A DNA stretch of 64,000 bases, taken from Siphonodentalium dalli. Its lineage: Eukaryota; Mollusca; Scaphopoda; Gadilida; Siphonodentaliidae. Every line of letters begins with the position of its first letter. Position 1 is the first letter of the stretch. The position numbers and the translations under genes are program-made. The notes below the pieces were generated by a model. It saw only the letters and a list, made by a program, of their open reading frames with translations. It was not told the DNA's origin and did no database searches. The stretch spans positions 40,858,918 to 40,922,917 of the forward strand of contig CP136062.1 in the NCBI GenBank assembly GCA_032622095.1, written 5' to 3'. Shown here one piece after another: positions 3,122 through 59,419 of the stretch.

Positions 3122-3700
3122 AGTAGTATTGGCTGACACTCTGGCCCACCCCCTCGCTCGGGGACACTCTGGCCCATGGGCCAGAGTGTCCCCGAGCGAG
3201 GGGGTGGGCCAGACTGTCAGTCCCCGGGCGAGGGGTTTGGATTTTTTCTGGCCTACCCCCGGCGCTCGGGGACACTCTGGCCCTTGGGCCAGAGTGTCCC
3301 CGAGCGAGGGGTTTTGGATTTTTTCTGGCCCAGCCCCGGCGCTCGGGGACACTCTGGCCCATGGGCCAGAGTGTCAGGTCCCAGAAAAAATCCAAACCCC
3401 TCGCTCAGGGTAGGATTCATCGGTCCAGAGGTTGTGTTACATTACAAAAAGTAAGGTGAGCGCTTCGAAGGATTTTTTTTTGACAGAAAAGAGCACAATT
3501 TACCAATGTATCGATTTTTCTCTCGGATTCTAATGCCAGTGTGGTAAGCGAAGGGCGCTCCCCTTCGCTGTATACATTGGACTTAGAATAATACTGAGAA
3601 AAAATAGATGTGTTGTTAAATTGTGGTACTTTACCAGTGCATTTTTTAACAAAAGCGAAAGTCTTCGAATAAATTCGAAGACGCTAGCGTTGTACAATGT
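3122..3700 (+). repeat. left terminal inverted repeat of the Polinton
   Basis: It matches the right end (13888-14292) in inverted orientation, from AGTAGTATTGG through CGAAGACGCTAGCG. It is longer than the right copy because a GC-rich palindromic unit (CCCGAGCGAGGGG, CCAGAGTGTC) is reiterated between 3133 and 3400. The outermost palindrome, 3133-3220, is symmetrical around CCATGG with one mismatched pair. Open frames across this block are by-products of the repeats. Confidence 0.9.
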
Positions 3701-3820
3701 ACTCGTAGAAGTTACCTTTCAGTGAAATATGTTAGGAGATAATGGTAAAATGGTACAGATAAAAATTTTCCCGAGTCAAATTGGTGTTTTATTCATAGAA
3801 ATATGATGTTTTTGACAAAA

Positions 3821-3907
3821 AAAGAAACACATCTGATTTGACGTTCGGAGAAATTTGGTAGAAAAACGCATCAAGTCGTCAACGAGGCCCGCGCATCCCA
3901 TATATTT
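3821..3907 (+). promoter_or_regulatory. accessory-gene promoter module, copy 1
   Basis: It begins AAAGAAACACATCTGATTTG, has TTTGACGTTCGG, GCATCAAGTCGTCAACG and CCGCGCATC, and ends in CATATATTT as a TATA box. The same order recurs at 5155-5250 (minus), 5740-5828 and 13202-13260. TGACGT is the half-site of ATF/CREB-type factors. The gene start at 3969 lies about 65 bases beyond the TATA box; two very short upstream ORFs intervene. Confidence 0.7.
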
Positions 3908-3968
3908 GATCCTCGAAGATGTTAACGTTATTAGATGCGTAAATTGTAACGTAGCGTTATTTTGAAAC

Positions 3969-4418
3969 ATGGATCCAGTAACGGAATTTCTCAAGACTAT
4001 TGATGTACAATACGACCATGTTCCTGCAACAACACAAATGTCGACTCCACTGTATGCAGGGAATGTGACGCCACGGGTAGAGCAACAACAGATACCAATG
4101 GTGTATCCGCAAACGGAACAACAACCAGTGTATACACCGCCGGTGAAAACACAACCAATAACTCTACCTGTTATATACCAAGTTATCAACAGTTCACAAT
4201 GGGAAGAACAGACAAAATTGTTACGGAATATTTGGCAGGAAATGAAGGATTTGCGAAAGCAATTAACGCAAAAACCGGCTGAATGTACAATCAACTTGAA
4301 ACCTCACACGATTGACATAGCAATTGAGGTACATGGTTTCCAGAAAGAACCTACGAAGCGATCAACATTTGGATCACTCGGGAAAGATTTAACAGTGATG
4401 ATGAAACAAAAGAAATGA
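3969..4418 (+). CDS. Polinton accessory protein, 149 aa, unknown function
   Basis: I do not recognise the family. The intact frame starts MDPVTEFLKTID. Residues about 20-75 are rich in Gln, Pro, Thr and Val and probably disordered. Residues about 76-100 (SSQWEEQTKLLRNIWQEMK) look like a charged amphipathic helix or short coiled coil. The C-terminus is basic (MMKQKK). No enzyme motif is seen. It converges on the minus-strand gene at 4712-5126; both start inside mirrored copies of the TIR and share a promoter module. A decayed histone-type hairpin follows 17 bases after the stop. A regulatory or early role is inferred only from this arrangement. Confidence 0.7.
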   Translation: MDPVTEFLKTIDVQYDHVPATTQMSTPLYAGNVTPRVEQQQIPMVYPQTEQQPVYTPPVKTQPITLPVIYQVINSSQWEEQTKLLRNIWQEMKDLRKQLTQKPAECTINLKPHTIDIAIEVHGFQKEPTKRSTFGSLGKDLTVMMKQKK

Positions 4419-4435
4419 TTTTTATATTATTTTAA

Positions 4436-4454
4436 ACGGTCCTTTTCGGATACA
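4436..4454 (+). promoter_or_regulatory. decayed histone-type 3' hairpin after the first accessory gene
   Basis: TTTAAACGGTCCTTTTCGG aligns with the intact hairpins at 4683-4698 (minus) and 6237-6252 in its 5' flank, left arm and UUUUC loop. The right arm is degraded, leaving about four pairs. The sequence after it, GGATACACTCTG, resembles the GATACACTCTG that follows the intact hairpin of the neighbouring gene. Confidence 0.5.
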
Positions 4455-4539
4455 CTCTGTATCATTATGCTATATGATGATCGTATTATAGATATGAAGG
4501 GTGGTAGTGGGGTTTTTTATTGTTAGGGAAGTTTTCTTT

Positions 4540-4623
4540 GATAAATTATGTGGACATTTTCTCCAAGTTCATGATGAATGATTTTGGTTTGGAGAAATTA
4601 TGTGAACATTCTCTCCAAGTTCA
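4540..4623. repeat. 32-bp direct repeat, two copies
   Basis: AAATTATGTGGACATTTTCT followed by CCAAGTTCA (4540-4571) recurs as AAATTATGTGAACATTCTCT followed by CCAAGTTCA (4592-4623). It lies between the 3' ends of two convergent accessory genes. Confidence 0.7.
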
Positions 4624-4682
4624 GGAAGTATGAACAAATCGTACAGTAGCAATTTCAGAGTGTATCTTTTCAAAAATTGTGA

Positions 4683-4698
4683 GGCCCTGAAAAGGGCC
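4683..4698 (-). promoter_or_regulatory. perfect histone-mRNA-type 3' hairpin
   Basis: On the minus strand this reads GGCCCTTTTCAGGGCC: a perfect 6-bp stem with a UUUC loop, preceded by CCAAAAC. It matches the metazoan replication-dependent histone hairpin, which is bound by SLBP. A purine-rich GAAAAGATA follows 10 bases later, where histone genes have the U7-pairing downstream element. It begins 13 bases after the probable stop of the gene at 4712-5126. An AATAAA lies roughly 170 bases further on. Confidence 0.8.
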
Positions 4699-4711
4699 GT
4701 TTTGGATGGTT

Positions 4712-5126
4712 TCAAAAGAAACCGCACGATGTGTTTGGGTTTGAATACAGCTGAAAGTGGTCTTGGGAACGTCGCAACCAAATTGCAAAATTGCACGGAT
4801 GGCCTGTCTGTATCCCCCAGAGCGGCAAGAATTCGTAAACTCTATGCCCTGAGAAGATTATGATAGACCACAGCAAGTCGCACCATCAATCTTGATGGCC
4901 CCAGCAATATGGTGTGGCGGAACCACCGTGGTGGCAATCCAAACACCCGATCTCTGTTGTCCGTCAACAACATAACGGTGTACCTGTAGATATCAAAACA
5001 TTTATCTACAGTCCCCGTTTCTGCTAAACTCAAAGCTTTCCATATTGACTGTGCTTCATCCCCAAACACACCTCTCACCAGCATCCCATCCTCCAAATAG
5101 CTCCGATACAGATCTCGGTAATCCAT
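4712..5126 (-). pseudogene. Polinton accessory protein, about 138 codons, one frame break
   Basis: Starts MDYRDLYRSYLEDGM, choosing the ATG just after the shared promoter. The first frame runs on to a stop at 4842. The second frame opens near 4860 and ends in CGFF and a TGA at 4712-4714, 13 bases before the histone-type hairpin, the same spacing as in the right-end gene at 13479-13848. I infer a one-base break near 4850. Similarity to that right-end gene is visible in the start (MDY..Y..SY), in GT.(D/E)K.F(D/E) and in the tail, so the two look like distant paralogues. The family is unrecognised and no catalytic motif is seen. Confidence 0.6.
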
Positions 5127-5154
5127 TTCGGTATAAATGAAGAATGGGGATATC

Positions 5155-5250
5155 TTTTTTTTATATTGAAAACGCGCGGACGTCGCCGACGACGTCATGC
5201 GTTTTTCTACCAAATTTCTCCGAACGTCAAATCAGATGTGTTTCTTTTTT
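5155..5250 (-). promoter_or_regulatory. accessory-gene promoter module, copy 2
   Basis: In minus orientation: AAAGAAACACATCTGATTTG, TTTGACGTTCGG, GCATGACGTCGTC, CGACGTCCGCGCG and AATATAAAA. It is nearly identical to 3821-3907 because it is part of the inverted internal copy of the left end. It carries two TGACGT-type sites and a TATA box about 25-40 bases upstream of the ATG at 5126. Confidence 0.75.
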
Positions 5251-5725
5251 TGTCAAAAACATATTTCTATGAATAAAACACCAATTTGACTCGGGAAAAT
5301 TTTATCTGTACCATTTTACCATTATCTCATAACATATTTCACTGAAAGGTAACTTCTACGAGTACATTTTACAACGCTAGCGTCTTCGAATTTATTCGAA
5401 GACTTTCGCTTTTGTTAAAAATGCACTGGTGAAGTAGCACAATTTACCAATACATCTATTTTTCTCGGTATTATTCTAAGTTCAATGTGTACAGCGAAGG
5501 GGAGCCCCCTTCGCTTACCACACTGGCATTAGAATCCGAGAAAAAATCGACACATTGGTAAATTGTGCTGTTTTCTGTCAAAAAATCTTTCGAAGCGCTC
5601 ACCTTACTCTTTGTAATGTAACACAACCTCTGGACCGATGAATCCTAACCTGGGACCTGTCACTCTGGCCCACCCTTCGCTGACTGTCACTCTGACCCAC
5701 CTGTCACTGATACACCCCACATCGC
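5195..5725 (-). repeat. internal inverted copy of the Polinton terminal repeat
   Basis: The sequence, including CGCTAGCGTCTTCGAA, GCGAAGGGGAGC, GTAATGTAACACAACC and CACTCTGGCCCACC, is the reverse complement of about 3400-3870 and also resembles the right TIR. Together with 3122-3870 it makes 3122-5725 a self-contained foldback unit holding two convergent genes. It may be a short non-autonomous element abutted to, or an inverted duplication of, the main left end. The outermost AGTAGT terminus is missing here. Confidence 0.85.
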
Positions 5726-5739
5726 TCGAGGTATTCTGG

Positions 5740-5828
5740 AAAAAAGAAACACACTTGAATTGACGTTCAGAGAAATTTGATGAAATACGCATGACGTCGT
5801 CAGCGGCGTCCGCGCGTTTCATATAATA
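5740..5828 (+). promoter_or_regulatory. accessory-gene promoter module, copy 3
   Basis: AAAAAAGAAACACACTTGAA, ATTGACGTTCAG, GCATGACGTCGTC, GGCGTCCGCGCG and CATATAATA in the standard order. The ATG at 5828 overlaps the TATA box and cannot be the start; the next in-frame ATG at 5864 fits. Confidence 0.75.
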
Positions 5829-5863
5829 TGGAGCGCAGTGTAGCGTTTTATTTTAGCTTTAAA

Positions 5864-6217
5864 ATGTTCTCTAAGCTAAAAGAGAAAATTTTGCTAAAAT
5901 TCTATGCCGATGCTCAATTAAAGTATTGGCAGAAGAATATTAGATATTCGGAGAGCCATAAGCTAGCCATTAGAGCTGGAGTTCAAGAATTCCTGCAAAG
6001 ACGGAGACCTAGTCCTCCCAAGGTGTATGTGGAAACTCCAGAGTGGAAACCCACGTATAAGGAGGGAGCATTATATCCAGACTTGTCTGAATTTAATCCT
6101 CCAAAGCCGCTATCAAGGTGGATTACCACTGAGGCAGCAGAATACGTGTCGGATCCATACTGGAGACCCACATATAACAAGGGAGGATTTTTTCCTGATT
6201 TGTCTGAATTTTATTGA
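5864..6217 (+). CDS. Polinton accessory protein with duplicated WxPTYxxG-PDLSEF motif
   Basis: 117 residues from MFSKLKEK, the first ATG beyond the TATA box. The N-terminal half is a basic, probably helical region ending in FLQRRRPSPPK. The C-terminal half holds two copies of a 17-residue unit, W(K/R)PTY..G...PDLSEF, one mid-chain and one ending the protein. Duplicated linear motifs of this sort often serve as bivalent docking sites; that reading is inference. No enzyme motif or known family is recognised. The promoter module lies upstream and the best-preserved histone-type hairpin starts 20 bases beyond the stop. Confidence 0.7.
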   Translation: MFSKLKEKILLKFYADAQLKYWQKNIRYSESHKLAIRAGVQEFLQRRRPSPPKVYVETPEWKPTYKEGALYPDLSEFNPPKPLSRWITTEAAEYVSDPYWRPTYNKGGFFPDLSEFY

Positions 6218-6236
6218 CTCGGCAAACAATTTAAAC

Positions 6237-6252
6237 GGCCATTTTCAGGGCC
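6237..6252 (+). promoter_or_regulatory. histone-mRNA-type 3' hairpin with ACCCA flank
   Basis: GGCCATTTTCAGGGCC forms a 6-bp stem with one A-G mismatch and a UUUC loop. It is preceded by TTTAAAC and followed directly by ACCCA, the canonical cleavage-side flank of metazoan histone messages. CAAAAGATA, 14 bases after the stem, sits where the histone downstream element would. That downstream block (AAAAGATA...CTCTGAAATTGC) is shared with the minus-strand hairpin at 4683-4698. Confidence 0.8.
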
Positions 6253-6300
6253 ACCCAAATTGTTCAAAAGATATGCTCTGAAATTGCTAAAAAACGTAAC

Positions 6301-6328
6301 AAATAAATAAAATCAATAATATTTTATT
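6301..6328. terminator. back-to-back polyadenylation signals
   Basis: AATAAA occurs on the plus strand at about 6302-6312, and on the minus strand at 6323-6328, where it overlaps the stop codon of the zinc-knuckle gene. These are the probable cleavage signals of two convergent genes. The plus-strand one is a possible backup to the histone-type hairpin. Confidence 0.6.
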
Positions 6329-6908
6329 CACTATTTTTAACTTTCTTGGAAGATTTTTTCGATAAACGTCTTTTTCTCTTTCTGTTAGGCAAAGTGGTTT
6401 GCTTAATTTCAGTATCGTTAGCGCTTTTGGCTACAGCATTTATCACTTCCATCTGCGAATCATCCGTGTTTAGAATAGTGATTTCATCATTTGACACCTC
6501 GGTTGAGGCGTATAATTCACCACTCTCAGTTTTCACATCCGCGATCTCGTTAATTGACATCGCGGTTGAGTTCCATTGTTCCCCACTTTCAGCTTTCATA
6601 TCCGCGATCTCGTTAGTTGATGTCTCAGTTTGATCAATGTCCATTACATCACATGGTGTGAGATAATCGTTGTCTGGTGTGTCCGTCCAAGGAGACTTCC
6701 CAGGAGTAGATTCACTCACCATCAATGATGATTTTTTCATCTGATCAATCTTATTTTTCGTAGTACCATCACATTGAAAAGCCCAATGTGAACTCGAATT
6801 GCATCTAAAACAGTTACCATATGGTGGTATCCACTTTGTATTCTTTAAAACTTCTAATGCAATTTTTCGTAAATGTTGTATGTTGTTACTCTGCAATCGT
6901 GGATCCAT
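6324..6908 (-). CDS. Polinton zinc-knuckle accessory protein, 194 aa
   Basis: Residues 33-46 form a perfect CCHC zinc knuckle (C-x2-C-x4-H-x4-C), typical of single-strand nucleic-acid binding. Residues about 80-160 are acidic with about three degenerate copies of a unit like S.NEIAD.K.ESGE. The C-terminus (RKRKRRLSKKSSKK) is a strong nuclear localisation or nucleic-acid-binding tail. The frame is intact and starts MDPRLQ, echoing the MDPVT start of the gene at 3969. It is divergently transcribed from the structural block out of the palindrome at 6942-7056. The message ends at an AATAAA overlapping the stop; no histone hairpin is seen. A nuclear or replication-accessory role is plausible but unproven. 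Confidence 0.75.
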   Translation of the reverse strand: MDPRLQSNNIQHLRKIALEVLKNTKWIPPYGNCFRCNSSSHWAFQCDGTTKNKIDQMKKSSLMVSESTPGKSPWTDTPDNDYLTPCDVMDIDQTETSTNEIADMKAESGEQWNSTAMSINEIADVKTESGELYASTEVSNDEITILNTDDSQMEVINAVAKSANDTEIKQTTLPNRKRKRRLSKKSSKKVKNSE

Positions 6909-6941
6909 TGTGAGCGTTCGGTGCGTTATTCAGTCGTCATT

Positions 6942-7056
6942 GAAATGACGACGTGATGAAAAAGCGCGTCGCTTTTATGCTCTGACACGGACGATGACTG
7001 CGCATGTCCGTGTCAGAGCATAAAAGCGACGCATTTTTTCATCACGTCGTCATTTC
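6942..7056. promoter_or_regulatory. palindromic divergent promoter
   Basis: Arms 6942-6992 and 7006-7056 are 51-bp near-perfect inverted repeats (two mismatches visible) around a 13-bp spacer. Each arm holds CATAAAAG, a TATA-like box, and ACGTCGTCATTTC near its outer end. One half faces the zinc-knuckle gene (ATG at 6908), the other the first capsid-block gene (ATG at 7060). It is the only obvious promoter for the ten genes to its right. Such a strong hairpin could also be a replication signal. Confidence 0.75.
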
Positions 7057-7059
7057 ACG

Positions 7060-7355
7060 ATGAAGCGCCTTGTGCCATATTCAGATAGCGAAAGCGAACG
7101 AGATAATTCTACAATTGCATAGCGAACTACTCCGGTTAGAGTAAATTCTACAATTGCACAGCGAGCTACTCCAGCTAGAGCAAATTCTACATTTGCTAGT
7201 TTTCAACCACTCAACGATAATGGTCCGCAACCAATTCCATCAGTTCAAGAAGCAGAACATTCCCCGTTGGTTCAACGATACTCAAAAATTATGAATCTTT
7301 CATGGCTTTGATGGCATTTGATCGTAATTTTAATAAACGTAAAAGTAAAAAGTAA
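7060..7355 (+). pseudogene. small Polinton core-like protein, interrupted
   Basis: Starts MKRLVPYSDSESE, an opening I associate with small Polinton/adintovirus proteins (from memory of the family). A tandem STIA.R.TP unit follows; the first copy contains an in-frame TAG (7120-7122) where the second has Gln. The first frame ends at 7309-7311, but the neighbouring frame continues to 7353-7355 with a basic tail (FNKRKSKK), so a one-base break near 7295 is likely. The basic tail fits DNA binding inside the virion. It is first gene of the structural block. Confidence 0.6.
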
Positions 7356-7391
7356 TTAAGTCATTTGACATTCAACTGTTAAAGAGTAAAG

Positions 7392-7735
7392 ATGGCGAAA
7401 AAAACTCCACTGATTAAAAAATATGGTAGTTTTGTAATGGCTATGAATCAGGCACCAACTCATTTTCGGAAAAAAAATGATAAAAGATGCCCCAAAGAGA
7501 GTGATTGATTGCATGTCAGAATGCTGTAAAAATATTTTAAAAGGCAATGTAAAACTAACAGAAGCTCAGAAGCGCAAACTTCGTCCGAGGTGTAGACATC
7601 TCAGAGAACTTGCAAGTAAATCAACATCTTTGAAACGAAAAAAACAAATTTTAAACCAGATAGGAGGTTTTTTTAACACTTCTTATGCTAGCACCGTTGC
7701 TTGGTAAAGCAGTCGCTGAAATACTTCGCAGCTAA
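7392..7735 (+). pseudogene. Polinton core-like protein (LKGNVxLTxxQKRKLR family), two frame breaks
   Basis: The middle frame holds CMSECCKNILKGN, LTEAQKRKLRP and a Lys/Arg-rich stretch, then GGFF. This matches a small basic protein family common next to Polinton capsid genes. An N-terminal part (MAKKTPLIKKYGSF) is open in a different frame from 7392, switching at the A-run near 7469. The hydrophobic C-terminal part (LMLAPLLGKAVAEILRS) switches frame at the T-run near 7670 and ends at 7733-7735, two bases before the next ATG. It probably packages DNA or contacts membrane. Confidence 0.65.
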
Positions 7736-7737
7736 AC

Positions 7738-8477
7738 ATGAAGAAAATGGTCGCTGTTCCCTTCAAAATGTTGGATGACATTAAAAAATGGAGAATGAGT
7801 CTAACTAATCCGATATTACAACCTAATCCTGAAATTACGAATATTTCAAAACTAAGCAGAGATTTGAATTCAGTTTCTGATCAAAATTTGTCAGAATCTG
7901 AGAAGGTTCAATTATATGGTACAACTTTGCACAAATTGAAAACTTCTCAAAAATCAGTTAGAGCTATTTCAGCCCCGAAAACAGAACAGCCATTTAATCA
8001 TCATCATAGGGATATGCTAGAAAGTATTCCGCTAAAGATGAGAAAAAAAGCTGAACAACTTTTACAACTGATTTCAAAACATCCACAAATGAAGTTTGAT
8101 GAACATGGACAATTAAAATATGGTGAAAAAGTTATTAGAGGATCAAATATTGTTGATCTCCTCAATGATATTGTACGACAAAGATAGGTTTCGAACCAAC
8201 AGGTTGGCAAACCTTTTCACAAGGATTGAGCGAGCTTAATGTACCTCAAGATTTTGTAGGGAACAGAAACCGCTGGCTTTGGATTAAAAAACATTTGAAA
8301 GATGATTCAGATGATGATTTTGAAACTCCGGTACAAAGCATAACACCAAAACGATTTGATTCTCATCGATTCACACCAATGAAAGGTATAAAAGCAAGAC
8401 ATTCAAAAACTAAAATAGCAGATAGGTTGACACCAAAGGGTATTAAAACAGAAAAAACACAATGGGATCCATACTAG
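7738..8477 (+). pseudogene. Polinton conserved capsid-associated protein, one frame break
   Basis: The first frame (149 codons, MKKMVAVPFKMLDDI) ends at 8185-8187. A second frame then continues through PTGWQTFSQGL, LSELNVPQDFVGN and a basic, Thr/Pro-rich tail to 8475-8477. The order of a helical N-terminus, a GSNI.DLL core and an ELNVP motif matches a conserved Polinton protein encoded just before the integrase, whose function I cannot name. It overlaps the integrase start by 16 bases. Confidence 0.65.
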
Positions 8478-9545
8478 ATGAACAGTTATCTAAATTTTCT
8501 ATAATCCGAAGAAAATTGGAAGTTATGGCGGTGTAAAGAAGCTTTTTGATGAAGCGAAAAAGCAAAATAAAAAAATAAAACTCATAGATGTGAAGAAATG
8601 GTTGCAATGTCAGTCGACATATACTCTACACAAACCAATAATTCGAAAATTCCAACGTAGAAAGACTGTTGTAGCTGGGATTGATATTCAATGGCAGGCA
8701 GATTTAGCTGATCTTCAGAATTTGAAAAAACATAATGATACTTACAGATATCTGTTGTGTGTGATAGACGTTTTTTCAAAATTTGCGTGGGTATTGCCAA
8801 TCCACGATAAATCTGGACATACTTTGATCGAATCATTCAGGAAAATTTTGAAATCTTCAAAACGTAAACAAAAATCGTTTCAAGCTGATAATGGTTCTGA
8901 ATTCAAAAATGAAAAGTTTTTGAAATTTCTGCGATCAGAAAGAATTCATTTCTTCACAACTGAGAATCCAGAGACTAAAGCAAGTATTGTCGAGCGATTT
9001 CAAAGAACTTTAAAACTCGCATGTGGAAGTATTTCACACACAATAAAACTTCAAGATATATTGATGTTTTACAGCCCCTAGTCGATTCTTACAACAATAG
9101 TAATCACCGTAGCATAAAATCTAAACCGTCGGAAGTTACTTTGAAAACTGAAGCTGAAATTTCCAAAAATCTATATGGAACAGGGAATAAAAAAGGAAAA
9201 TCTACACTGAAAGTGTGTGACTTGGTTCGTATTAACAAAACCAAAAGAACATTTGAAAAGGGTTATTTACCAAACTGGACTCGTGAAATTTTCAAAGTTG
9301 ATAAAATTTGTAAAACTAATCCAATAACATACAAAGTTTCTGATCTTGATGGTGAAGAGATTGATGGATCATTCTACAAACATGACATCCAGCATATAAA
9401 AGACAGTAAGGTGTATGAAATAGAATCAGTTATCGATAAAAGAACGAGAAGAGTGGGTGGTAAAACAGTAAAAGAAATTAAAGTTCATTGGCTTGGATAT
9501 CCAAAAAAGTTTTACAGTTGGATCCCAGCTTCAAATTTAGTATAA
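8462..9545 (+). pseudogene. Polinton rve-type integrase with chromodomain, two frame breaks
   Basis: The integrase inserts the element by DD(E) strand transfer, as retroviral enzymes do. Three consecutive frames carry it: an N-terminus from ATG 8462 to a break near 8493; the catalytic core (8497-9010); and the C-terminal part (about 9015-9545). In the core, WQAD supplies the first Asp, QADNGSEF the second, and ASIVERFQRT the Glu, with 34 residues between the second Asp and the Glu. The last 45 residues (VIDKRTRR, VHWLGYP, SWIPASNL) are a chromodomain, the usual C-terminus of Polinton integrases. The second break is in the TTTAAAAC run near 9010. Total of about 360 codons is near family length. 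Confidence 0.9.
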
Positions 9546-9558
9546 AACAGAATTAATC

Positions 9559-9858
9559 ATGTCGCAAAATCATTCAGATTCAATTAGTCTCGATGAACCA
9601 TCACAATTTAAGTTCTGTGGTGAAAAAGTTGCTAAGAACCAAGTCACCTACTTCACGCATATAATTATTATTTATATCATAATAATTACATCTATTGTAT
9701 ACATTAGTATCCAGAGCGCAAACAAAGAATTGTGGCTTATTCTTCTAAGTAGTTCTCTAGCTTATATTCTACCAATACCTGGACTGAAATTATTGAAAAA
9801 TACTGAGAGAAAAATATTCATTCTACATAACTCGCATATTCTGGTGGATCACATTTGA
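9559..9858 (+). CDS. small Polinton membrane protein
   Basis: 99 residues. Residues about 31-51 are a strongly hydrophobic Ile-rich transmembrane helix and 58-72 (LWLILLSSSLAYILP) a second hydrophobic segment ending in the P.PG turn seen in related Polinton proteins. A small two-segment membrane protein between integrase and penton is a recurring feature of these elements. The last ~20 residues (after NTERK) do not look conserved and might reflect a frame change. It is probably a virion membrane or morphogenesis protein. Confidence 0.65.
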   Translation: MSQNHSDSISLDEPSQFKFCGEKVAKNQVTYFTHIIIIYIIIITSIVYISIQSANKELWLILLSSSLAYILPIPGLKLLKNTERKIFILHNSHILVDHI

Positions 9859-10383
9859 CAGATACAATTCAAGGTGTAATTGATAGTACAGTAAGCAGAA
9901 TGATTCCAGAACTGAAATTCGAATTCGGATATTCCAAAGCACAACAACGAGTTAAAATTTCAACCAATAGTTATACCAAAGTATGTCTTGTACTCCCCAG
10001 AGCTCTTTTGGATAAACTTGGTTACAGAACAGAATCAAACACTGTCACATTTGCTACTCCTTCGATAACATTTCCATATGGAGTTGATTTAAATGCGGAG
10101 CATAATCAATTGTTTGTTTATTCTTACATTGCTGATTATACAATTCTTAGTGATGTTGAAGCACCGATATTACGAGTGACATCATTCGAGAGTAAAAGAA
10201 TACATGATGGTAAACATATTAAGCATGAATTCAAAAACTTACAGTATGTACCAGTATCAAAGTCTAGCTTTGATACCATAAATGTATATATAACTGGTGA
10301 TACTGGTTAAACCAATTCAGTTTATTGGTGGAAAGTCTATGGTAAAGTTGCATTTCCGACGCCGAAGTAATTTGTATTTATGA
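9855..10383 (+). pseudogene. Polinton minor capsid protein (penton, single jelly roll)
   Basis: Forms capsid vertices in Polinton and adintovirus virions. Family features visible are ELKFEFGYS near the start, YSYIADYTILSDVEAPILRV in the middle, YVPVSKSSFDTI and the DTG turn near the end. The main frame stops at 10308-10310, but the next frame continues with FIGGKSMVKLHF and a basic tail, ending at 10381-10383, so a one-base break near 10308 is likely. The start is uncertain: the first in-frame ATG is 9900, and the frame is open from 9831. The stop overlaps the next gene's ATG as ATGA. Confidence 0.85.
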
Positions 10384-10760
10384 TTATCCCCGTGTATAGA
10401 GGCGTACCTAGACAGTATGGTAATGGAATTGGTTCACTATTCAAAGCTGCAATGAGAACAGTACTAGCGTTTCTAAAACATATTGGTCAGATTGCTAAAC
10501 AACAAGTATTCAAGCATGGACTTGCTGCAGTCGAAGATATCATTCATCGTGGTAAAAGTCCAAAAGAAGTATTTTTGAAACAAGGTAAAGAAGCATTGAA
10601 ATCTTTTGGAAGGGAAACAATAAAGAAAATATCAACACCAAATGGCATAAATAGATCATCGCGACCTTTGAAAAATCATTCTTCTCGCAAACGAGTTAGA
10701 AGTAAGTCCATTAAAACGCCTGTAAAGAAATCACAACGATCTCTCGATATATTTGATTAA
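10380..10760 (+). CDS. Polinton basic core or membrane-active protein
   Basis: 126 residues, intact. It starts MIIPVYRGVPRQYGNGIGSL; the (Y/R)G.GIG.LF opening followed by an amphipathic helix (FKAAMRTVLAFLKHIG) is typical of a protein encoded between penton and major capsid protein in Polintons. It is reminiscent of adenovirus minor core or membrane-lytic proteins. The C-terminal third (SSRKRVRSKSIKTPVKKS) is very basic, suggesting DNA contact. It overlaps the penton stop (ATGA) and ends two bases before the capsid ATG. Confidence 0.65.
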   Translation: MIIPVYRGVPRQYGNGIGSLFKAAMRTVLAFLKHIGQIAKQQVFKHGLAAVEDIIHRGKSPKEVFLKQGKEALKSFGRETIKKISTPNGINRSSRPLKNHSSRKRVRSKSIKTPVKKSQRSLDIFD

Positions 10761-10762
10761 TC

Positions 10763-12064
10763 ATGATGATGCAACATGGATCATGCGAATGCAGCAAGTC
10801 CGAGTTAGATGCTTCTGATGTTCCACCAACAATGACAACGATGTTGGAATCACAATGGATAGAACATCATCCGATTAGCTCTTTGAATAATTCCGCACCG
10901 GTAGAATTTGTAATTTCACCTCAAACTGAAAAATGGACAGATGTAAATCAACCATATTTGTACCTGAAATTCAAAATCACAAAAGCAGATGGAACAAACT
11001 TGGTTGATGGTACTGATGAAATTGCGCCTATTAACAACTTTTTCCATAGTATGTTCAGTAGTATTGATATTTACCTAAATAACAAACTTGTAACGGCGAA
11101 CGGAGATACCTATCCTTATCGAGCCTGCATGGAAAATCTCTTGGCTTATTCTGATGAATGTAAAGAAAATCAACTTGCCGCACTAGAAATGTGGTATCCA
11201 GACACCGCTAAACAGTTCACCGAAAACACTAAAGCTGGTGGTAATGATGGATTGAAATCTCGCCAAGCAATCATAGCAGGTAGTAAAACGGTAGAATTGT
11301 GTGGTCGTTTACACACAGATATATTTCTACAAGAGAAATACTTACCAAATGGAATTGAGATAAGAATTCGTCTCAATAGAGCGAATCCAAAATTCTTTTT
11401 AATTGGTCAGGCCGACGGAAAAATTGTATTTGAAACGGCAGTTTTCAATGTTCGTACAATTACGCTGATGCCAGTAGTAGCAAATAACTTGAACCAAACA
11501 ATAATACAGAAAAATATGAAAATACCGATTAGAAGAGTTGAAGTAAAAACATTCACTATTGGTGCAGGGCTTAGATCAAAAATTGAAGATCACCTTTTTC
11601 AAGGACAAATGCCAAAGAGACTTTTCATAGGCTTGGTATCAAAGAAAGATATGAATGGCGATATTGATACGAACCATTTCATTTCCAACACTTCAATCTG
11701 AAAAAGCTTGAAGTTAGTCAGGACGGACATACCATCCATAACCGACCATTTGAACCAAACTTTGAATCAGAACAATGCCTAAGATCTTATTTATCACTGT
11801 ATCAGTCTTCGGGTATGTTTGGACATAACAAATCCTTTGGTTTGAATCTCGAAAAATACATGAATGGTTATTGTTTCTGGGGTTACGACCTCACACCTGA
11901 CCAAGGGGCAGGAAGGACATTTGCATCCTATAAACACCGGTAACATAAGGTTAGAGCTTCAGTTTGCTGCAGCTCTAGCTTCAGTGATCAACGTGATAGT
12001 CTATGCTGAGTTTGATAATCAACTTGAAATCAACAATTTGCGAGAAATAATAACAGATTATTAA
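10763..12064 (+). pseudogene. Polinton major capsid protein (double jelly roll), two frame breaks
   Basis: This protein forms the hexon-like shell; in animal genomes such copies are often annotated F54H12.2-like. The first frame (312 codons) shows ESQWIEHHPISSLNNSAPVE, TEKWTDVNQPYLYLKFKI and GRLHTDIFLQEKYLPNGIEI. It shifts near 11680: the original frame stops at 11699-11701 while a second frame carries the next ~85 residues, including GMFGHNKSFGLNLEKY, to a stop near 11941. A third frame ([26 protein letters not shown]) completes it to 12062-12064. Combined length, about 430 codons, fits the family. Confidence 0.93.
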
Positions 12065-12068
12065 AAAC

Positions 12069-12524
12069 ATGGATGGATTGCATTTGGAGGAAAAATTGAG
12101 AGAGCAAGTTGGAGGACTCGATTTCATTCCATATGTTTCTATCCTTGACAAAGTTCGGAAAACTTTCGAGAAATGTTCCGTTCATGAAATACAAAATCAA
12201 ATTTCAAAAGAAGTGACACTCAATTGTGAAGGATGTAAAATAGATCATCCAAGTCAGACACGACATTTACTTTGTCTTTGGACACCACCTATACAATGGG
12301 TAGATATGTTCATTGATATAGCACTACTTAAATTGAACATCTACCGAGTTATGGAACAATGGTATCCAGAAATAGAATCATTTACACCACAAGAGAAATT
12401 TGAGGCATTCAAACTTTGGAAAGATATAAAGGAAGTTATTCATGCAAACTGTAACCAATTTAATTCGGTTTTTATTGACTTGTGGTGTGAAAAAGTAAAA
12501 AAATACTACGAAGATGAACACTAG
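12069..12524 (+). CDS. Polinton Cys/His protein, 151 aa
   Basis: Intact. Residues 53-69 hold C-x2-C-x3-H-x5-H-x2-C around a DHPSQ core, a likely metal-binding site that I recall as conserved in proteins of invertebrate Polintons. The remainder is helical with many aromatic residues (WTPPIQWVDM, MEQWYPEIESF). Function is unknown. It lies four bases after the capsid stop and overlaps the protease start by 11 bases, so it probably belongs to the late structural set. Confidence 0.65.
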   Translation: MDGLHLEEKLREQVGGLDFIPYVSILDKVRKTFEKCSVHEIQNQISKEVTLNCEGCKIDHPSQTRHLLCLWTPPIQWVDMFIDIALLKLNIYRVMEQWYPEIESFTPQEKFEAFKLWKDIKEVIHANCNQFNSVFIDLWCEKVKKYYEDEH

Positions 12525-13044
12525 CGAACTTCAGCATATACTAGACAAATCATCCTACCTCTGTTCATTGTATGGTGTAGTGTGTGCAAAAGATCAGTTA
12601 CCACACGAGAAACCTCATCATGTAAAAACATACATAGTAAATACACATACGTCAGAAAAGCCAGGAGAACACTGGGTTGCCATTTTCTTCAATGGGAACA
12701 TTGCAACATATTTCGATTCGTTTGGGATACCAGTTATTGATAAATGTATCAAATCATTTATTCAAAGAAATTCGATCGAATGTAAAATAAACGTTGGGCG
12801 GTTTCAACATCACGGTACAAACGTATGTGGTATCTACTGCATATTTGCTTTACATTTCTTGAAAAGCGGATATGGTATACAAGTATTAGTTGAAATGAAT
12901 TTTGATGGTGACTACTTCAAAAATGATAGAAAATTATTTGATTGCTTTCGTAGAAACTATGAACACTTACGAAAAGAATCAGAAACATTACCCAAAACAT
13001 GTATTTCACAAACTTGTAAGACTTACTGTGAATTTCAGTGTTGA
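12514..13044 (+). CDS. adenain-like cysteine protease
   Basis: 176 residues, intact. This maturation protease of Polinton and adenovirus-type virions cleaves capsid and core precursors during assembly. The catalytic set is readable in order: His53 (GEHWVAIFF), Asp68 (YFDSFG), Gln98 (RFQHHG) and Cys105 (NVCGIYC). The seven-residue spacing from Gln to Cys is the adenain spacing. Length is close to the Polinton family norm. It is the last gene of the structural block, and an AATAAA lies about 80 bases after the stop. Confidence 0.92.
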   Translation: MNTSELQHILDKSSYLCSLYGVVCAKDQLPHEKPHHVKTYIVNTHTSEKPGEHWVAIFFNGNIATYFDSFGIPVIDKCIKSFIQRNSIECKINVGRFQHHGTNVCGIYCIFALHFLKSGYGIQVLVEMNFDGDYFKNDRKLFDCFRRNYEHLRKESETLPKTCISQTCKTYCEFQC

Positions 13045-13122
13045 TAAAATGTGTCCATTACCAATTGTTTAAATATGTTAAAATCATAATCATTTTATAA
13101 ATATGTTGATTCTTAATTCAAA

Positions 13123-13128
13123 AATAAA
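13123..13128 (+). terminator. polyadenylation signal of the structural block
   Basis: AATAAA within AAAAATAAAAG, 79 bases after the protease stop. I see no other clear AATAAA in the tightly packed intergenic joints from 7060 on. Confidence 0.6.
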
Positions 13129-13201
13129 AGTTATGTTGTTGAAAAACAGTATCTGTTTTAATGATCGTCTTCGGCAATGTCGATCAAGATCTTAATTCAC
13201 C

Positions 13202-13260
13202 AAAAAGAAACACATTTGAAATGACGTCGCCAATGACGTCCGCGCGTTTTACATATAACA
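13202..13260 (+). promoter_or_regulatory. accessory-gene promoter module, copy 4
   Basis: AAAAAGAAACACATTTGAA, ATGACGTCGCC, AATGACGTCCGCGCG and ACATATAAC: the same module as at the left end with the middle shortened. It contains two complete TGACGTC sites. Unlike the other copies, the predicted ATG (13479) is about 225 bases downstream, with at least two tiny upstream ORFs. Confidence 0.7.
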
Positions 13261-13478
13261 AAACCCCATTTAGAGTATACCATTTAGGGTGGCATGTAAC
13301 CCATGCTCCACAAGCAAGCATCAAATGACTAGAAAACACTCACAACCAAACTCAACAAACGCTCTTCAGCGGCACTATATCACTCAACCGTGGGTTGTAG
13401 GAGAGGGCTTACAGCCCTTTCAAATCTTCCCGGGGGGATCTTCCCAAACCCAAACTCTCGTATATCATTTCCTCCACG

Positions 13479-13848
13479 ATGGATTACCCTAAAACTTATC
13501 TTGGATCTTATGTCAGAGCCATCCGTGTATCGGCCCGAGGGACATTGTGGTGTGGGAGACCCTTTCCTGAGCAGTGTATGGTACAGGTGAAAAGTTCTTT
13601 GAACTATTCACTTTTGTCTGTGCAACTTGGGCTCGGAATCCTACACTGTTCAGTGTACAGGAGATAGAACACATCGAATGGCTTGGAGAGAGAAAAAGCA
13701 GTACAGATTAGACGTATCCCCATTGAAGGGTGTGAGTATACCGCAAGGTATATTTCCATCTCTCATCGAGGGTTCGCTTGTGTTTCGGGAGTTGGATCAA
13801 GAGGATGGATTTGAGTTCCTAAAGACCCCATATCCACTTTTCTTGTGA
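13479..13848 (+). pseudogene. Polinton right-end accessory protein, paralogue of 4712-5126, two frame breaks
   Basis: Starts MDYPKTYLGSYVRAI. Three overlapping frames read sensibly in succession: about 13479-13575, 13575-13690 (GTGEKFFELFTFVCATWARN) and 13690-13848 (YRLDVSPLKGVSIPQGIF, ending PYPLFL). Similarity to the minus-strand gene at the other end lies in MDY..Y..SY, GT.(D/E)K.F(D/E) and the C-terminal region. No known family is recognised. The shared promoter module is upstream and a histone-type hairpin with decayed right arm starts 13 bases after the stop. The two paralogues sit next to opposite termini. Confidence 0.55.
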
Positions 13849-13861
13849 TCTGACGTAAAAC

Positions 13862-13878
13862 GGCCCTTTTCAGATGGC
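13862..13878 (+). promoter_or_regulatory. decayed histone-type 3' hairpin
   Basis: AAAACGGCCCTTTTCAG is identical to the left arm, loop and 5' flank of the perfect hairpin at 4683-4698, but the right arm reads ATGGC instead of GGCC. The position relative to the stop is conserved, 13 bases. Confidence 0.6.
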
Positions 13879-13887
13879 TCTTGCATG

Positions 13888-14292
13888 CACATTTTCACAG
13901 CGCTAGCGTCTTCGAATTTATTCGAAGACTTTCGCTTTTATTAAAAATGCACTGGAAAGTAGCACAATTTACCAACACGTCTATTTTTTCTCGGTATTAT
14001 TCTAAGTTCAATGTGTACAGCGAAGGGGAGCGCCCTTCGCTTACCACACTGGCATTAGAATCCGAGAAAAAATTGTGCTCTTTTCTGTCAAAAAATCCTT
14101 CGAAGCACTCACCTTTCTCTTTGTAATGTAACACAACCTCTGGACCGATTAATCCTACCCTGGGACCTGTCACTCTGACCCACCCCTGGCTGGCTGGCAC
14201 TCTGGCCCACCCCCTCGCTCGGGGACACTCTGGTCCATGGGCCAGAGTATCCCAGAGCGAGGGGGTGGGCCCGAGTGTCAGCCAATACTACT
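13888..14292 (-). repeat. right terminal inverted repeat of the Polinton
   Basis: Inverted match to 3122-3700, ending GAGTGTCAGCCAATACTACT. It carries one large imperfect palindrome (about 14192-14283, centred on CCATGG), where the left end carries several. Confidence 0.9.
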
Positions 14293-21160: not shown

Positions 21161-21541
21161 CCCTTTACCCAACAGAACGGCCCTGTGCCAATGCATTCTC
21201 TTATATATGCGAGTCGACCATAGGTCGCCTCGCATTTATAAGAGAATGCATTGGCTTAACACATTAAAAATTATAAAATTGTTAAACAATGTAAGAAAAA
21301 ATGGTAAAAAGTGTTTTTTTTAGGCCAATACATTCTCTTATATATGCGAGGCGACCTATGGTCGACTCGAATATATAAGAGAATGCATTGGCACAGGGCA
21401 TAACTGTAACTATCACAATGTGGTCAAGGAGCCGGTTCCAATGATATCCATATTTGTATGGTTCTATTGAGACAGACCGAAGATATTTTAGGCTGTTGAA
21501 GCTTTATTTGGCCGGTTTTGGCCGGTTTGTTGGGTAAAGGG
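21161..21541 (+). mobile_element. piggyBac-like MITE, copy 1
   Basis: Flanked by TTAA on both sides (21157-21160 and 21542-21545), with termini CCCTTTACCCAACA and TGTTGGGTAAAGGG. TTAA targets and CCC-starting ends are piggyBac hallmarks. Inside are two ~68-bp palindromes of GCCAATGCATTCTCTTATAT type around a GTCGACCATAGGTCGC loop, the second in opposite loop orientation. Non-coding. Further copies are at 26580 and 59033. Confidence 0.8.
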
Positions 21542-26579: not shown

Positions 26580-26971
26580 CCCTTTACCCAACAGAACGGC
26601 CCTGTGCCAATGCATTCTCTTATATATGCGAGTCGACCATAGGTCGCCTCGCATATATAAGAGAATGCATTGGCTTAACACATTAAAAATTATAAAATTG
26701 TTAAAGAATGTAAGAAAAAATGGTAAAAAGTGTTAAAAAAAGATTTTGTTTAGGCCAATGCATTCTCTTATATATGCGAGGCGACCTATGGTCGACTCGC
26801 ATATATAAGAGAATGCATTGGCACAGGGCATAACTGTAACTATCACAATGTGGTCAAGGAGCCGGTTCCAATGATATCCATATTTGTATGGTTCTATTGA
26901 GACAGACCGAATATATTTTAGGCTGTTGAAGCTTTATTTGGCCGGTTTTGGCCGGTTTGTTGGGTAAAGGG
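26580..26971 (+). mobile_element. piggyBac-like MITE, copy 2
   Basis: Same termini and internal double palindrome as copy 1. Flanks are TTAG on the left and TTAA on the right, so one target base has mutated. Confidence 0.8.
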
Positions 26972-44958: not shown

Positions 44959-47500
44959 CTACGTCGCGGCTGCTCCCGAGTGCCGAATTCCCCGGAAATT
45001 ATGCAGTACAACGTAATGTGAGAGAAAACCATAGTCCCTGTTTAACCCTTTCCGGATGGTATCCATGTAGGTTATTAATTTCAACTCTACTGTTTTCCTT
45101 GCTCTCAGTCGTTTCAATCCTGCTCTGAGAACTCTGACCTTAAGGTCTTCCTCTGAATGGCGAGAAGAGTTAAAATGTTCTCCCACGGGAACGAATATAT
45201 TTTCTGATGTTATGTCATGCCGATGATGCCGGTGTCCATTCATGCGGCCTCTGAGGGTTTGGCCCGTCTCTCCGATGTAGATAAGCCCGGGACACTGTCT
45301 GCATGTCAGAGCATAAACAACACATTCAGAGCTGCACGAGAATAACCCACTCGGTGTGATAGATTTCCCGGTACTGTTGGTCAGAGTTCCATTTGTCACA
45401 GAAGAGCATGTTGCACAATTCCATATTCCGCACGGGTATGTTCCGTTCTGTTGGTTGTTATGCAAGTTATGTGCTCTAACTAGACTCTTTCGGAGGTTCG
45501 GAGGTTGTCGATATGACATTAAAGGTAATTCAGGGAAAATATCACGCAGTTTGTCATCATTTTGAAGCACACATTGTAGGTCCTTGGCGATAGTTTTTAG
45601 TTTTTGTAATTTTGGATGAAATGTGACTACCAGTGGTATTTTTGATGGAGTATTCTGATGGTTGTCGTCGGAATTATACTGAAGTAGTTCCACCCTGTCC
45701 TTGACAACTGCTTTTTGTATCTCTCTGTTTACAACTCTCTGCTTATATCCCAGGTTGACGAAGTTCTGCTGAAGATGCCCGATTTGTATGTCCCGCGTTT
45801 TCGAGTCACTGCATATCCTATTATAACGTAGAGCTTGGCTGTATATGACGGACGATTTAGTGTGATCGGGGTGGAAACTGTTCGGGTTCAGGTAAGTAAA
45901 TTTGTCCGTAGGTTTGCGATAGACTTTCGTGTTGATGTGGCCGTTTACAATGCTGACAGTGACATCCAAGAAGTTGACAGACTGTTTAGAATGCTCCATT
46001 TTGAGATTTATATCAGGGTGTTGGTCATTAAATGCCGCGTGGAATTCCTTCAGTCTATCTTCGCCATGTTCCCAAGTGAAGAAAATATCATCTATGAACC
46101 TGTAGTAGTTCGATGGCTTGAGGTCCGATGACTGAAGAAAAGTAGTTTCTAGATTGTCCATGAATATATTAGCGAATTGAGGAGCCATAGGCGTACCCAT
46201 GGCTGTTCCCTTAATTTGAACGAAATTGTCGCCGTGATACTGGAAATTGTTGTGTGTAAGAACAAACTCTGATAGTTTTAGAGTGACTTCCACTGGGAGA
46301 GAAGAGCCGATGGTTGTTCTTTCAATCGCACTTTTGATAGCAGCTAACCCGTTCCTGGTAGGAATATTTGAATATAATGCTTCTACGTCCATAGTTACAA
46401 GAATAGTCCCTTTCTCAACCGCATCGATACTTGCCAACTTGTTGAGAAAGTCTGTTGTGTCTTTAAGATAGCTTCTAGTAGACTTAACAATCGGTTGAAG
46501 TTCCTTATCTATTCTGCGTGAAATGTTCTCAGTTAACGTTCCCAGACCAGATACAATCGGGCGCCCTGGGTTGTTTTCCTTGTGTATTTTTGGAAGTATA
46601 TAGAAATATCCAGGTTTAGGTTGCGACGGAATATCATGCTGTATGCTCTCGCGAATTGTTTCTGGAAATGATTTCAACAATTTATTTAGTTCACGTTTAT
46701 ATTTCGGCGTCGGATCTTCCATCACATGAGCGTAATAATTCTCGTTCGAGAGTTGGCGTTTTGTCAGAATCCATAACTACTGTGGCACCTCCTTTATCGG
46801 CGGGTTTAATAACCAAATTCGTATTGTTCTTTAACTATTTCACAGCTTTGCGTTCCTGATATGACATATTGTATCGGGTTTTGTTACGTTTGTTTAGTAT
46901 TTCGCTCACAGCACGATTTCTAAATGTAGATATGTAAGTATCTAGACAATCACTGCGCCCAGATGGGGGAGTCCGTGTAGACTGCTTCTTAGAAACATCC
47001 CAAGCGTCAGAACAATTATCGGCGAGAGAAGTTTAATTGTCATCAGTTTCATCTTTCTCATTGCGTTCGTGAAAATATTCTTTCAGTCTCATTCGGCGGA
47101 AATAAACTTCCAATTCACCACATAGATTAATTTGATCAAGATTGGTAGTTGAGCAAAACGAAAGTCCCTTTTCTAAAACACTGTTTTCATGGGAGTCCAA
47201 CTGGTGAGATGAAAGGTTTATAACAATGTCTTTTCGTTCTGTTTCAGTGTCGTCAGATTGTCGAGACATAGAATCAGTTTGGCGGACATTTGAATGAATT
47301 AGTGCTTGTAACTTTTTGTGTTTCCGATGCATATGTTCATCGAGAGATTTCTTGTAAATGTCAGGAAAATTGAAACTAGTGCCACTTACATTTTCAAAAG
47401 AAAGTCCGAATTCCTCCTTCAGTCGACGTTGTCTACTGTAACATATGTCGATAACATGATTTCTCAGTTTAGCTGAAGTTCTGTCACATAGATTATTAAA
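44959..47500 (-). pseudogene. Penelope-like reverse transcriptase with GIY-YIG endonuclease
   Basis: The main open part (44959-46725, 588 codons) has LPKIHK (44-49), MDVEALYSNIP (first catalytic Asp, 113), GTAMGTPMAP (173-182) and YRFIDDIF with catalytic Asp212-Asp213. NFLDV follows at 251-255. A C-x4-C-x2-C cluster (432-440) precedes the GIY-YIG nuclease (VVYALTC 469-475, YIGETGQTLRGR 483-494). Upstream sequence continues the protein: VIKPADKGGATVVMDS, then a TAG at 46835-46837, a stop at 47033-47035, and a frame break in an A-run near 46775. The N-terminal part (47033 to about 47495) has ENSVLEKGLSF, typical of this family. The copy is recently dead. Confidence 0.9.
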
Positions 47501-59032: not shown

Positions 59033-59419
59033 CCCTTTAACCAACAGAAGGGCCCTGTGCCAATGCATTCTCTTATATATGCGAGTCGACCATAGGTCGC
59101 CTCGCATATATATAAGAGAATGCATTGGCTTAACACATTAAAAATTATAAAATTGTTAAAGAATGTAAGAAAAAATGGTAAAAAAAGATTTTTTTTAGGC
59201 CAATGCATTCTCTTATATATGCGAGGCGACCTATGGTCGACTCGCATATATAAGAGAATGCATTGGCACAGGGCATAACTGTAACCATCACAATGTGGTC
59301 AATGAGCCGGTTCCAATGATACCCATATGTGTATGGTTCTATTGAGACAGACCGAAGATATTTTAGGCTGTTGAAGCTTTATTTGGCCGGTTTTGGCCGG
59401 TTTGTTGGGTGGTAAAGGG
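59033..59419 (+). mobile_element. piggyBac-like MITE, copy 3
   Basis: Same double-palindrome structure as at 21161 and 26580. The left flank is TTAC plus A before CCCTTTAACC; the right flank is TTAA after a GGTAAAGGG end with a small duplication, so this copy is slightly more decayed. Confidence 0.8.

Follow-up and report, generated by a model that had tools for sequence, protein, structure and literature searches.

The stretch considered here, called the window, is 64,000 nucleotides from the genome of the scaphopod mollusc Siphonodentalium dalli (contig CP136062.1, positions 40,858,918 to 40,922,917 of the forward strand). It contains a decayed copy of a Polinton/adintovirus-class element, and within that copy lie four small genes or gene remnants, A, B, C, and E, each followed by all or part of a stem-loop like the one at the 3' end of animal histone messages. 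The element, these genes, the blocks upstream of them, and their 3' elements are as follows, in coordinates of the window:

3122..14292, no strand: Polinton/adintovirus-class element, decayed copy, with terminal inverted repeats
3818..3905, plus strand: promoter block of gene A, with AAAGAAACACA at 3821, TGACGTT, and a TATA-like site
3969..4418, plus strand: gene A, 149 amino acids; homolog A' in other copies
4434..4465, plus strand: remains of a histone-type 3' element behind A; 5' arm AAACGGTCCTTTTC and part of the purine block, without the 3' arm
4657..4703, minus strand: histone-type 3' stem-loop of B; perfect stem at 4698-4683, purine block AAAAGATA, 29.4 bits
4712..5126, minus strand: gene B, broken; homolog B' in other copies
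5160..5250, minus strand: promoter block of gene B, with AAAGAAACACA at 5247; an inverted copy of the gene A block
5740..5827, plus strand: promoter block of gene C, with AAAGAAACACA at 5743
5864..6217, plus strand: gene C; homolog C' in other copies; an in-frame ATG lies further upstream at 5828
6232..6277, plus strand: histone-type 3' stem-loop of C; stem at 6237-6252 with an A.G mismatch, ACCCA, purine block, 26.5 bits
13201..13257, plus strand: promoter block upstream of gene E, with AAAGAAACACA at 13204
13479..13848, plus strand: putative gene E, broken, of doubtful coding status
13858..13878, plus strand: remains of a histone-type 3' element behind E; only the 5' arm is left

An earlier note, made from the letters of the window, had claimed a histone-type hairpin behind each of these four genes. 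The 5' arms are indeed where it placed them, and nowhere else: the two strands of the 64 kb together contain exactly four copies of ACGGYYNTTTTC (and of its extension AAACGGYYHTTTTC), at 4434(+), 4702(-), 6233(+), and 13858(+). Only two of the four sites, however, still fold. The hairpin of B has a perfect 6-bp stem and an energy of -11.3 kcal/mol, equalled by none of 200 shuffles, and the weaker hairpin of C (one A.G mismatch, -7.4 kcal/mol) is equalled by 9 of 200. The folds at A and E are at the level of chance (39 and 96 of 200 shuffles equal them). RF00032, the Rfam model of the histone 3' hairpin, finds only B (29.4 bits, E 2.5e-4) and C (26.5 bits, E 2.9e-3) in the whole window at E<=1, and scans of short stretches around A and E give no match. 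At A, TTTTC is followed by GGATACACTCTG, which matches the purine block of B; this suggests that about 20 nt, the 3' arm among them, were deleted.

The spacing that the note had given, 13-19 bases from stop to stem, agrees with the measured distances of 19 (A), 13 (B), 19 (C), and 13 (E), and the purine-rich block that it saw in two copies is AAAAGATA, which lies 12 nt after the stem of B and 13 nt after that of C. Just 5' of the hairpin of B, overlapping the stop of the gene, there is also a weak stem (4705-4723, minus strand; GGTTTC TTTT GAAACC; 14.1 bits with RF00032), which resembles a tandem arrangement found in other copies after a further gene, X.

Could so short a motif recur by accident? 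The earlier note held that its recurrence excludes chance. AAACGGYYNTTTTC is found four times in the window, whereas 200 dinucleotide shuffles gave 0.02 copies on average and never more than 1, and the claim is upheld by this count, by the E-values of RF00032, and by the other copies described below. A related view is that the stems act at the level of DNA, for example in replication or integration, and there are in fact further inverted repeats near the ends of the element. Yet the hairpin always lies on the strand of the gene upstream of it. With the shuffles and the E-values, this makes either chance resemblance or a DNA-level element scarcely credible.

Then there is the evidence from the rest of the genome (2.23 Gb, 9 contigs), which was searched with RF00032, whose curated cut-off is 34 bits. 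In this search 75 matches were scored, 63 of them in histone clusters (C5, C8) and 12 elsewhere; these counts are lower bounds, since only 75 of 409,530 first-look candidates were scored. Within the clusters, the 29 matches inspected all lie in stretches that hold histone genes, the other 34 being assigned by position only. All 12 matches outside the clusters were inspected, and each exceeds the cut-off and lies 3' of a gene of the element. The five best matches in the genome (44.2 bits and four at 43.2; L014-L018) follow not histones but homologs of gene C, and the remaining seven (34.8-42.1 bits, in L052-L057) follow homologs of A or C. Most hairpins of the host's histone genes score 42.2 bits, and the element hairpins are nearly identical to them. 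In none of 14 control genomes did a match exceed the cut-off.

Five copies (L044-L048) have left arms that are 92.7-99.5% identical to one another over stretches of more than 700 nt and that carry 24 hairpins in total. They follow A' (five of five copies, once with a mismatch), C' (five of five), B' (four of four, once with a mismatch, L046 having no B'), and X, which is followed by two in tandem, X1 and X2, each in five of five (X1 once with a G-U pair and once with a mismatch). When L052-L057 are included, there are 42 element hairpins in 11 stretches: 34 with Watson-Crick pairs only, 4 with one G-U, and 4 with one mismatch. All six positions are thus paired in 38 of the 42, as they are in the window only at B. 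Twelve of the hairpins were those that recruited their stretches; the other 30 are free of that selection, though they come from elements with at least one good hairpin. The stem lies 18-22 nt past the stop in L044, and the purine block begins 12-13 nt past the stem, except at X1, where X2 comes directly. Two of these copies, L046 and L047 (C1, about 276.52-276.54 Mb), share a strand, with about 8.3 kb between them, and over 3.2 kb their identity is 99.5%.

These copies form a subfamily diverged from that of the window. When compared with L044, A is 27% identical to A' (E 4.9e-4; the weakest match, missed by tblastn), B 37% to B' (E 1.6e-8), and C 31% to C' (E 2.1e-8), these E-values being computed against only five proteins. 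The stop of gene B at 4712 is supported by a C-terminal fragment of B that aligns with the end of B' (E 2.5e-6). No homolog of gene E was found in the other copies examined. Common origin of the hairpin-bearing proteins was considered and rejected, as pieces of A, B, C, and E have no similarity to one another beyond chance (best E 0.17).

The signal itself has changed far less than its surroundings. When the subfamilies are compared, the 16-mer of the hairpin agrees at 16 of 16 positions for B, 15 of 16 for C, and 69% for A, which is decayed in the window. The 40 nt upstream of the stem agree at only 30% (B) and 35% (C). A stable 16-mer beside a diverged flank fits the retention of an element that presumably still works. 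Might it instead be a passive relic, a host histone 3' end that was picked up a single time and then multiplied as gene cassettes were duplicated, without function in the element? The hairpin, flank, and purine block do resemble those of the host, and part of the arrangement of A and B in the window arose by inverted duplication. A relic would not be expected, however, to persist behind three gene families whose proteins are 27-37% identical while the 40-nt flank falls to 30-35% agreement, to be present also in a distant relative, and to be missing from gene D and the core genes. I regard this explanation as very improbable.

The distant relative, L004, came from a scan of prokaryote assemblies with a capsid alignment, which found four Polinton-like contigs astray in bacterial bins (L002-L005). 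L004 (CALIZB010000033.1, from the bin of a bacterial metagenome-assembled genome) has a capsid that shares 28% identity with P0001, itself closely homologous to the window capsid, and its RF00032 match (35.8 bits, E 4.6e-7) is above the cut-off of 34. The gene in front of this hairpin is small and encodes a C2H2 zinc finger; its stop lies 28 nt before the hairpin, and a purine block comes 12 nt past the stem. Common to L004 and the window element are homologous capsid and integrase, TGACGTCA repeats upstream, and a hairpin with purine block behind a small gene, which in L004 is close to the end of the contig. L004 differs in the kind of gene that bears the hairpin, in its loop, TATC, and in encoding a protein resembling TATA-binding protein (L004:1129-1692, plus strand; Pfam TBP E 1.9e-27, with matches to TBP chains in the PDB), which lies between the zinc-finger gene and the integrase. 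The expectation that relatives should carry the hairpin is thus borne out: the better-preserved copies in the same genome have it after the homologs of A, B, and C, and L004 has it after its zinc-finger gene. The sequence elements, their positions, and their association with the same genes across diverged subfamilies, as well as their presence in a distant relative, are seen directly.

The notion of a generic viral motif was also considered and rejected. Three pattern scans of IMG/VR returned 1, 0, and 8 stretches, none of which was accepted as real. The single stretch sits within an open reading frame (ORF) of an apparent phage contig. Seven of the eight (L006-L010, L012, L013) lie within long ORFs, on one strand or the other, and the eighth, L011, is close to a contig end and identical in sequence to L007-L009 and L013. 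IMG/VR gave no relatives of the capsid or PolB, the phage records gave no capsid match and one distant archaeal-virus PolB, and PHROGs offered nothing informative.

Not every gene of the element ends in this way. The remaining genes of the window copy, and a palindrome between them, are:

6324..6908, minus strand: gene D, 194 amino acids; no hairpin, AATAAA 108 nt past the stop
6941..7057, no strand: palindrome, arms of 52 nt, separating gene D from the core genes that run rightward
7471..13044, plus strand: core genes (small gene, integrase, minor capsid, pX, capsid, protease)

Gene D, which has a weak zinc-knuckle-like match below the Pfam cut-off, is 30% identical to its homolog D' (E 4.7e-11). 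In all four copies examined, D' has AATAAA 31-33 nt past its stop and no hairpin. The core regions of L049 and L050 show no hairpin within 120 nt past the stop in 15 of 15 ORFs, and few of these stops have a poly(A) signal nearby. The palindrome is perhaps the promoter region of the genes that flank it.

The distribution of poly(A) signals bears on another possibility, that the stems make no 3' ends, with polyadenylation occurring downstream and the hairpin serving stability or translation only. AATAAA or ATTAAA does occur past the hairpin of gene C in the window and about 136 nt past X2 in five of five copies. But neither is found within 250 nt past the hairpin of A' or C' in any of the five copies, and PMC1924863 describes histone genes of C. 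elegans that have AATAAA past the hairpin and yet yield mRNAs most of which end at the hairpin. Downstream polyadenylation as the sole source of the ends is thus highly unlikely. The check on AATAAA suggested in the earlier note comes out clean for A' and C' and not for gene C of the window.

The genes that bear hairpins are also marked at their 5' ends. The window has exactly four copies of AAAGAAACACA, always upstream of A, B, C, or E; each belongs to a longer block that also includes TGACGTT or TGACGTC, a stretch rich in CG, and a TATA-like site. Neither the motif nor the hairpin accompanies gene D or those core genes that were checked. In the five left arms, exact AAAGAAACACA precedes X and B' (where B' is present), and L047 and L048 have a variant of it ahead of A'. 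AAACACA, which I take to be the H1 box, occurs once in the two histone loci examined (in L020, with none in L019) and not as a AAAGAAACACA block; the idea of a histone-H1-like promoter was rejected, and no such reading is claimed here. A similar stretch, GTGGGTTGTAGGAGAGGG...TTCCCAAACCC, is found both upstream of gene E (window 13395-13455) and upstream of the host's H2B gene in L019. It is perhaps an unrelated repeat.

I propose that this family of elements has two classes of genes, distinguished by their 3' ends. The first would comprise A, B, C, the X of other copies, and perhaps E, with a stem-loop about 13-22 nt past the stop and a purine block 12-13 nt later. The second would comprise gene D and the core genes, without a hairpin, and in D with AATAAA. 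SLBP and the U7 small nuclear ribonucleoprotein (snRNP) of the host would cut messages of the first class just past the stem, and the resulting short messages, lacking poly(A), would be made and kept mainly during host DNA replication. Judged from sequence, the family ends a defined set of genes with what appears to be the host's histone 3' processing signal, and it is probable, as the most economical explanation, that the messages would be cleaved by SLBP/U7, tailless, and tied to replication. The use of SLBP and U7, the absence of poly(A), expression in S phase (or in the oocyte or early embryo), and the label "early" for these genes are what I infer from that signal. The larger claim, that a lineage of animal DNA viruses and transposons expresses several genes as an S-phase regulon of tailless, histone-like messages under SLBP/U7, a use of the histone 3'-end pathway outside histones that is conserved across its diverged members, is somewhat more likely than not.

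The tandem hairpins after X, and the four to five hairpins carried by most copies, would also suit a decoy, in which hairpin RNAs bind the host's SLBP or U7 and disturb the supply of histones, the genes being secondary. Such an effect could favor replication of the element or a state in which its DNA is poor in chromatin, and it is compatible with the proposal of processed messages. As the main explanation it is very improbable, because the constant distance past the stop, the promoter, and the purine block are those of working messages.

Several observations weigh against the proposal that these genes end in a working histone-type signal. The hairpins of A and E in the window are decayed, and those of B and C fall below the Rfam cut-off. 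The other subfamily lacks exact AAAGAAACACA ahead of A' and C', its coupling to the hairpin genes being looser there. Poly(A) signals lie past the hairpin of B' in one of four copies, besides those already noted for X and for gene C of the window. The same-genome copies were all found by means of the hairpin itself, and they too are partly damaged, for the ORF of C', 116 amino acids in three of the first five copies, is shortened in L047 (70) and L048 (102). L002, L003, and L005 have no RF00032 match; these contigs are partial, and the parts examined hold core genes. Finally, covariation in the stem amounts to one change on both sides (GGTCCT/AGGACC), with 148 of 500 shuffles as good, in a set of 16 chosen rows (14 distinct) made up of 10 of the 42 element hairpins, the 4 places in the window, L004, and one host gene.

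PMC2781718 and PMC1924863 describe the hairpin as a mark unique to replication-dependent histone mRNAs, whose 3' ends depend on the hairpin, SLBP, the U7 snRNP, and a purine-rich or spacer element. If the proposal is true, that exclusivity ends, and an integrated virus-like element would have a concrete route by which to sense host DNA replication. When Polintons are expressed could then be tested directly, in oocytes, embryos, and dividing cells. As RNA-seq based on poly(A) selection misses tailless messages, such expression may have been overlooked.

The element itself is recognizable despite its decay. Its terminal inverted repeats (3122-3220 and 14194-14292) are 94% complementary, and an inverted copy of the terminal sequence also lies inside, at about 5174-5701. 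The integrase (8494-9542), of the rve type, is split over two frames and carries a chromodomain at its C-terminus (Chromo PF00385, 28.1 bits, over the cut-off), and the capsid gene begins at 10763. Comparison with relatives identifies the integrase, minor capsid, capsid, and protease genes. By tblastn, the L002 integrase matches the window at E 8e-78, in two frames, and the L002 capsid at E 8e-77, in a match that continues past a stop. At E<=0.001, a piece of the window capsid finds 360 homologs, with F54H12.2-like proteins of the clam Mercenaria among the best 120, and by such homology a double jelly-roll capsid protein is recognizable. Decay is evident in an in-frame stop and a frame change in gene B, the two frames of the integrase, and the stop in the capsid. 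The window copy gave no match to PolB (queried with those of L002 and L004) or to the ATPase. In the other subfamily, both were found in L049 and PolB was found in L046 too, which means that the copy in the window either lost the two or belongs to a reduced line.

Elsewhere in the window, an ORF of 587 amino acids (44962-46722, minus strand) contains a reverse transcriptase domain (RVT_1 E 2.4e-12) and belongs to a separate retroelement. Three stretches (21187-21391, 26616-26812, and 59051-59274) resemble the same plant miRNA families at sub-threshold scores, which is typical of long inverted repeats, and are probably copies of one repeat.

How does the element compare with systems already described? 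It shares with Polintons/Mavericks and adintoviruses a chromodomain integrase, capsid, minor capsid, protease, and terminal inverted repeats, with PolB and ATPase in other copies. Zinc-finger genes occur in some adintoviruses, and histone-like proteins in related viruses, according to the available text of PMC11071296. Unlike the Polintons and adintoviruses described, it has histone-type 3' ends on a set of its genes; that same text mentions none, and the word "stem-loop" is absent from it. Nor was any link between these elements and histone-type 3' ends found in the accessible parts of the open-licence literature (including PMC11071296, PMC8363768, PMC12721341, and PMC11071308), which tests the point only weakly. 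With the replication-dependent histone genes of animals it shares the stem GGCCCT/AGGGCC, the loop TTTC, AAAC before and ACCCA after, and the purine block 12-13 nt later. The host's own H2A, H2B, and H4 genes have the same stem-loop, with ACCCA and an AAAAAGA block as well, but in them the stem lies 29-36 nt past the stop, as against 13-22 nt in the genes of the element. Unlike the histone genes, those of the element that bear the hairpin do not encode histones, and one of them, X, ends in two hairpins in tandem.

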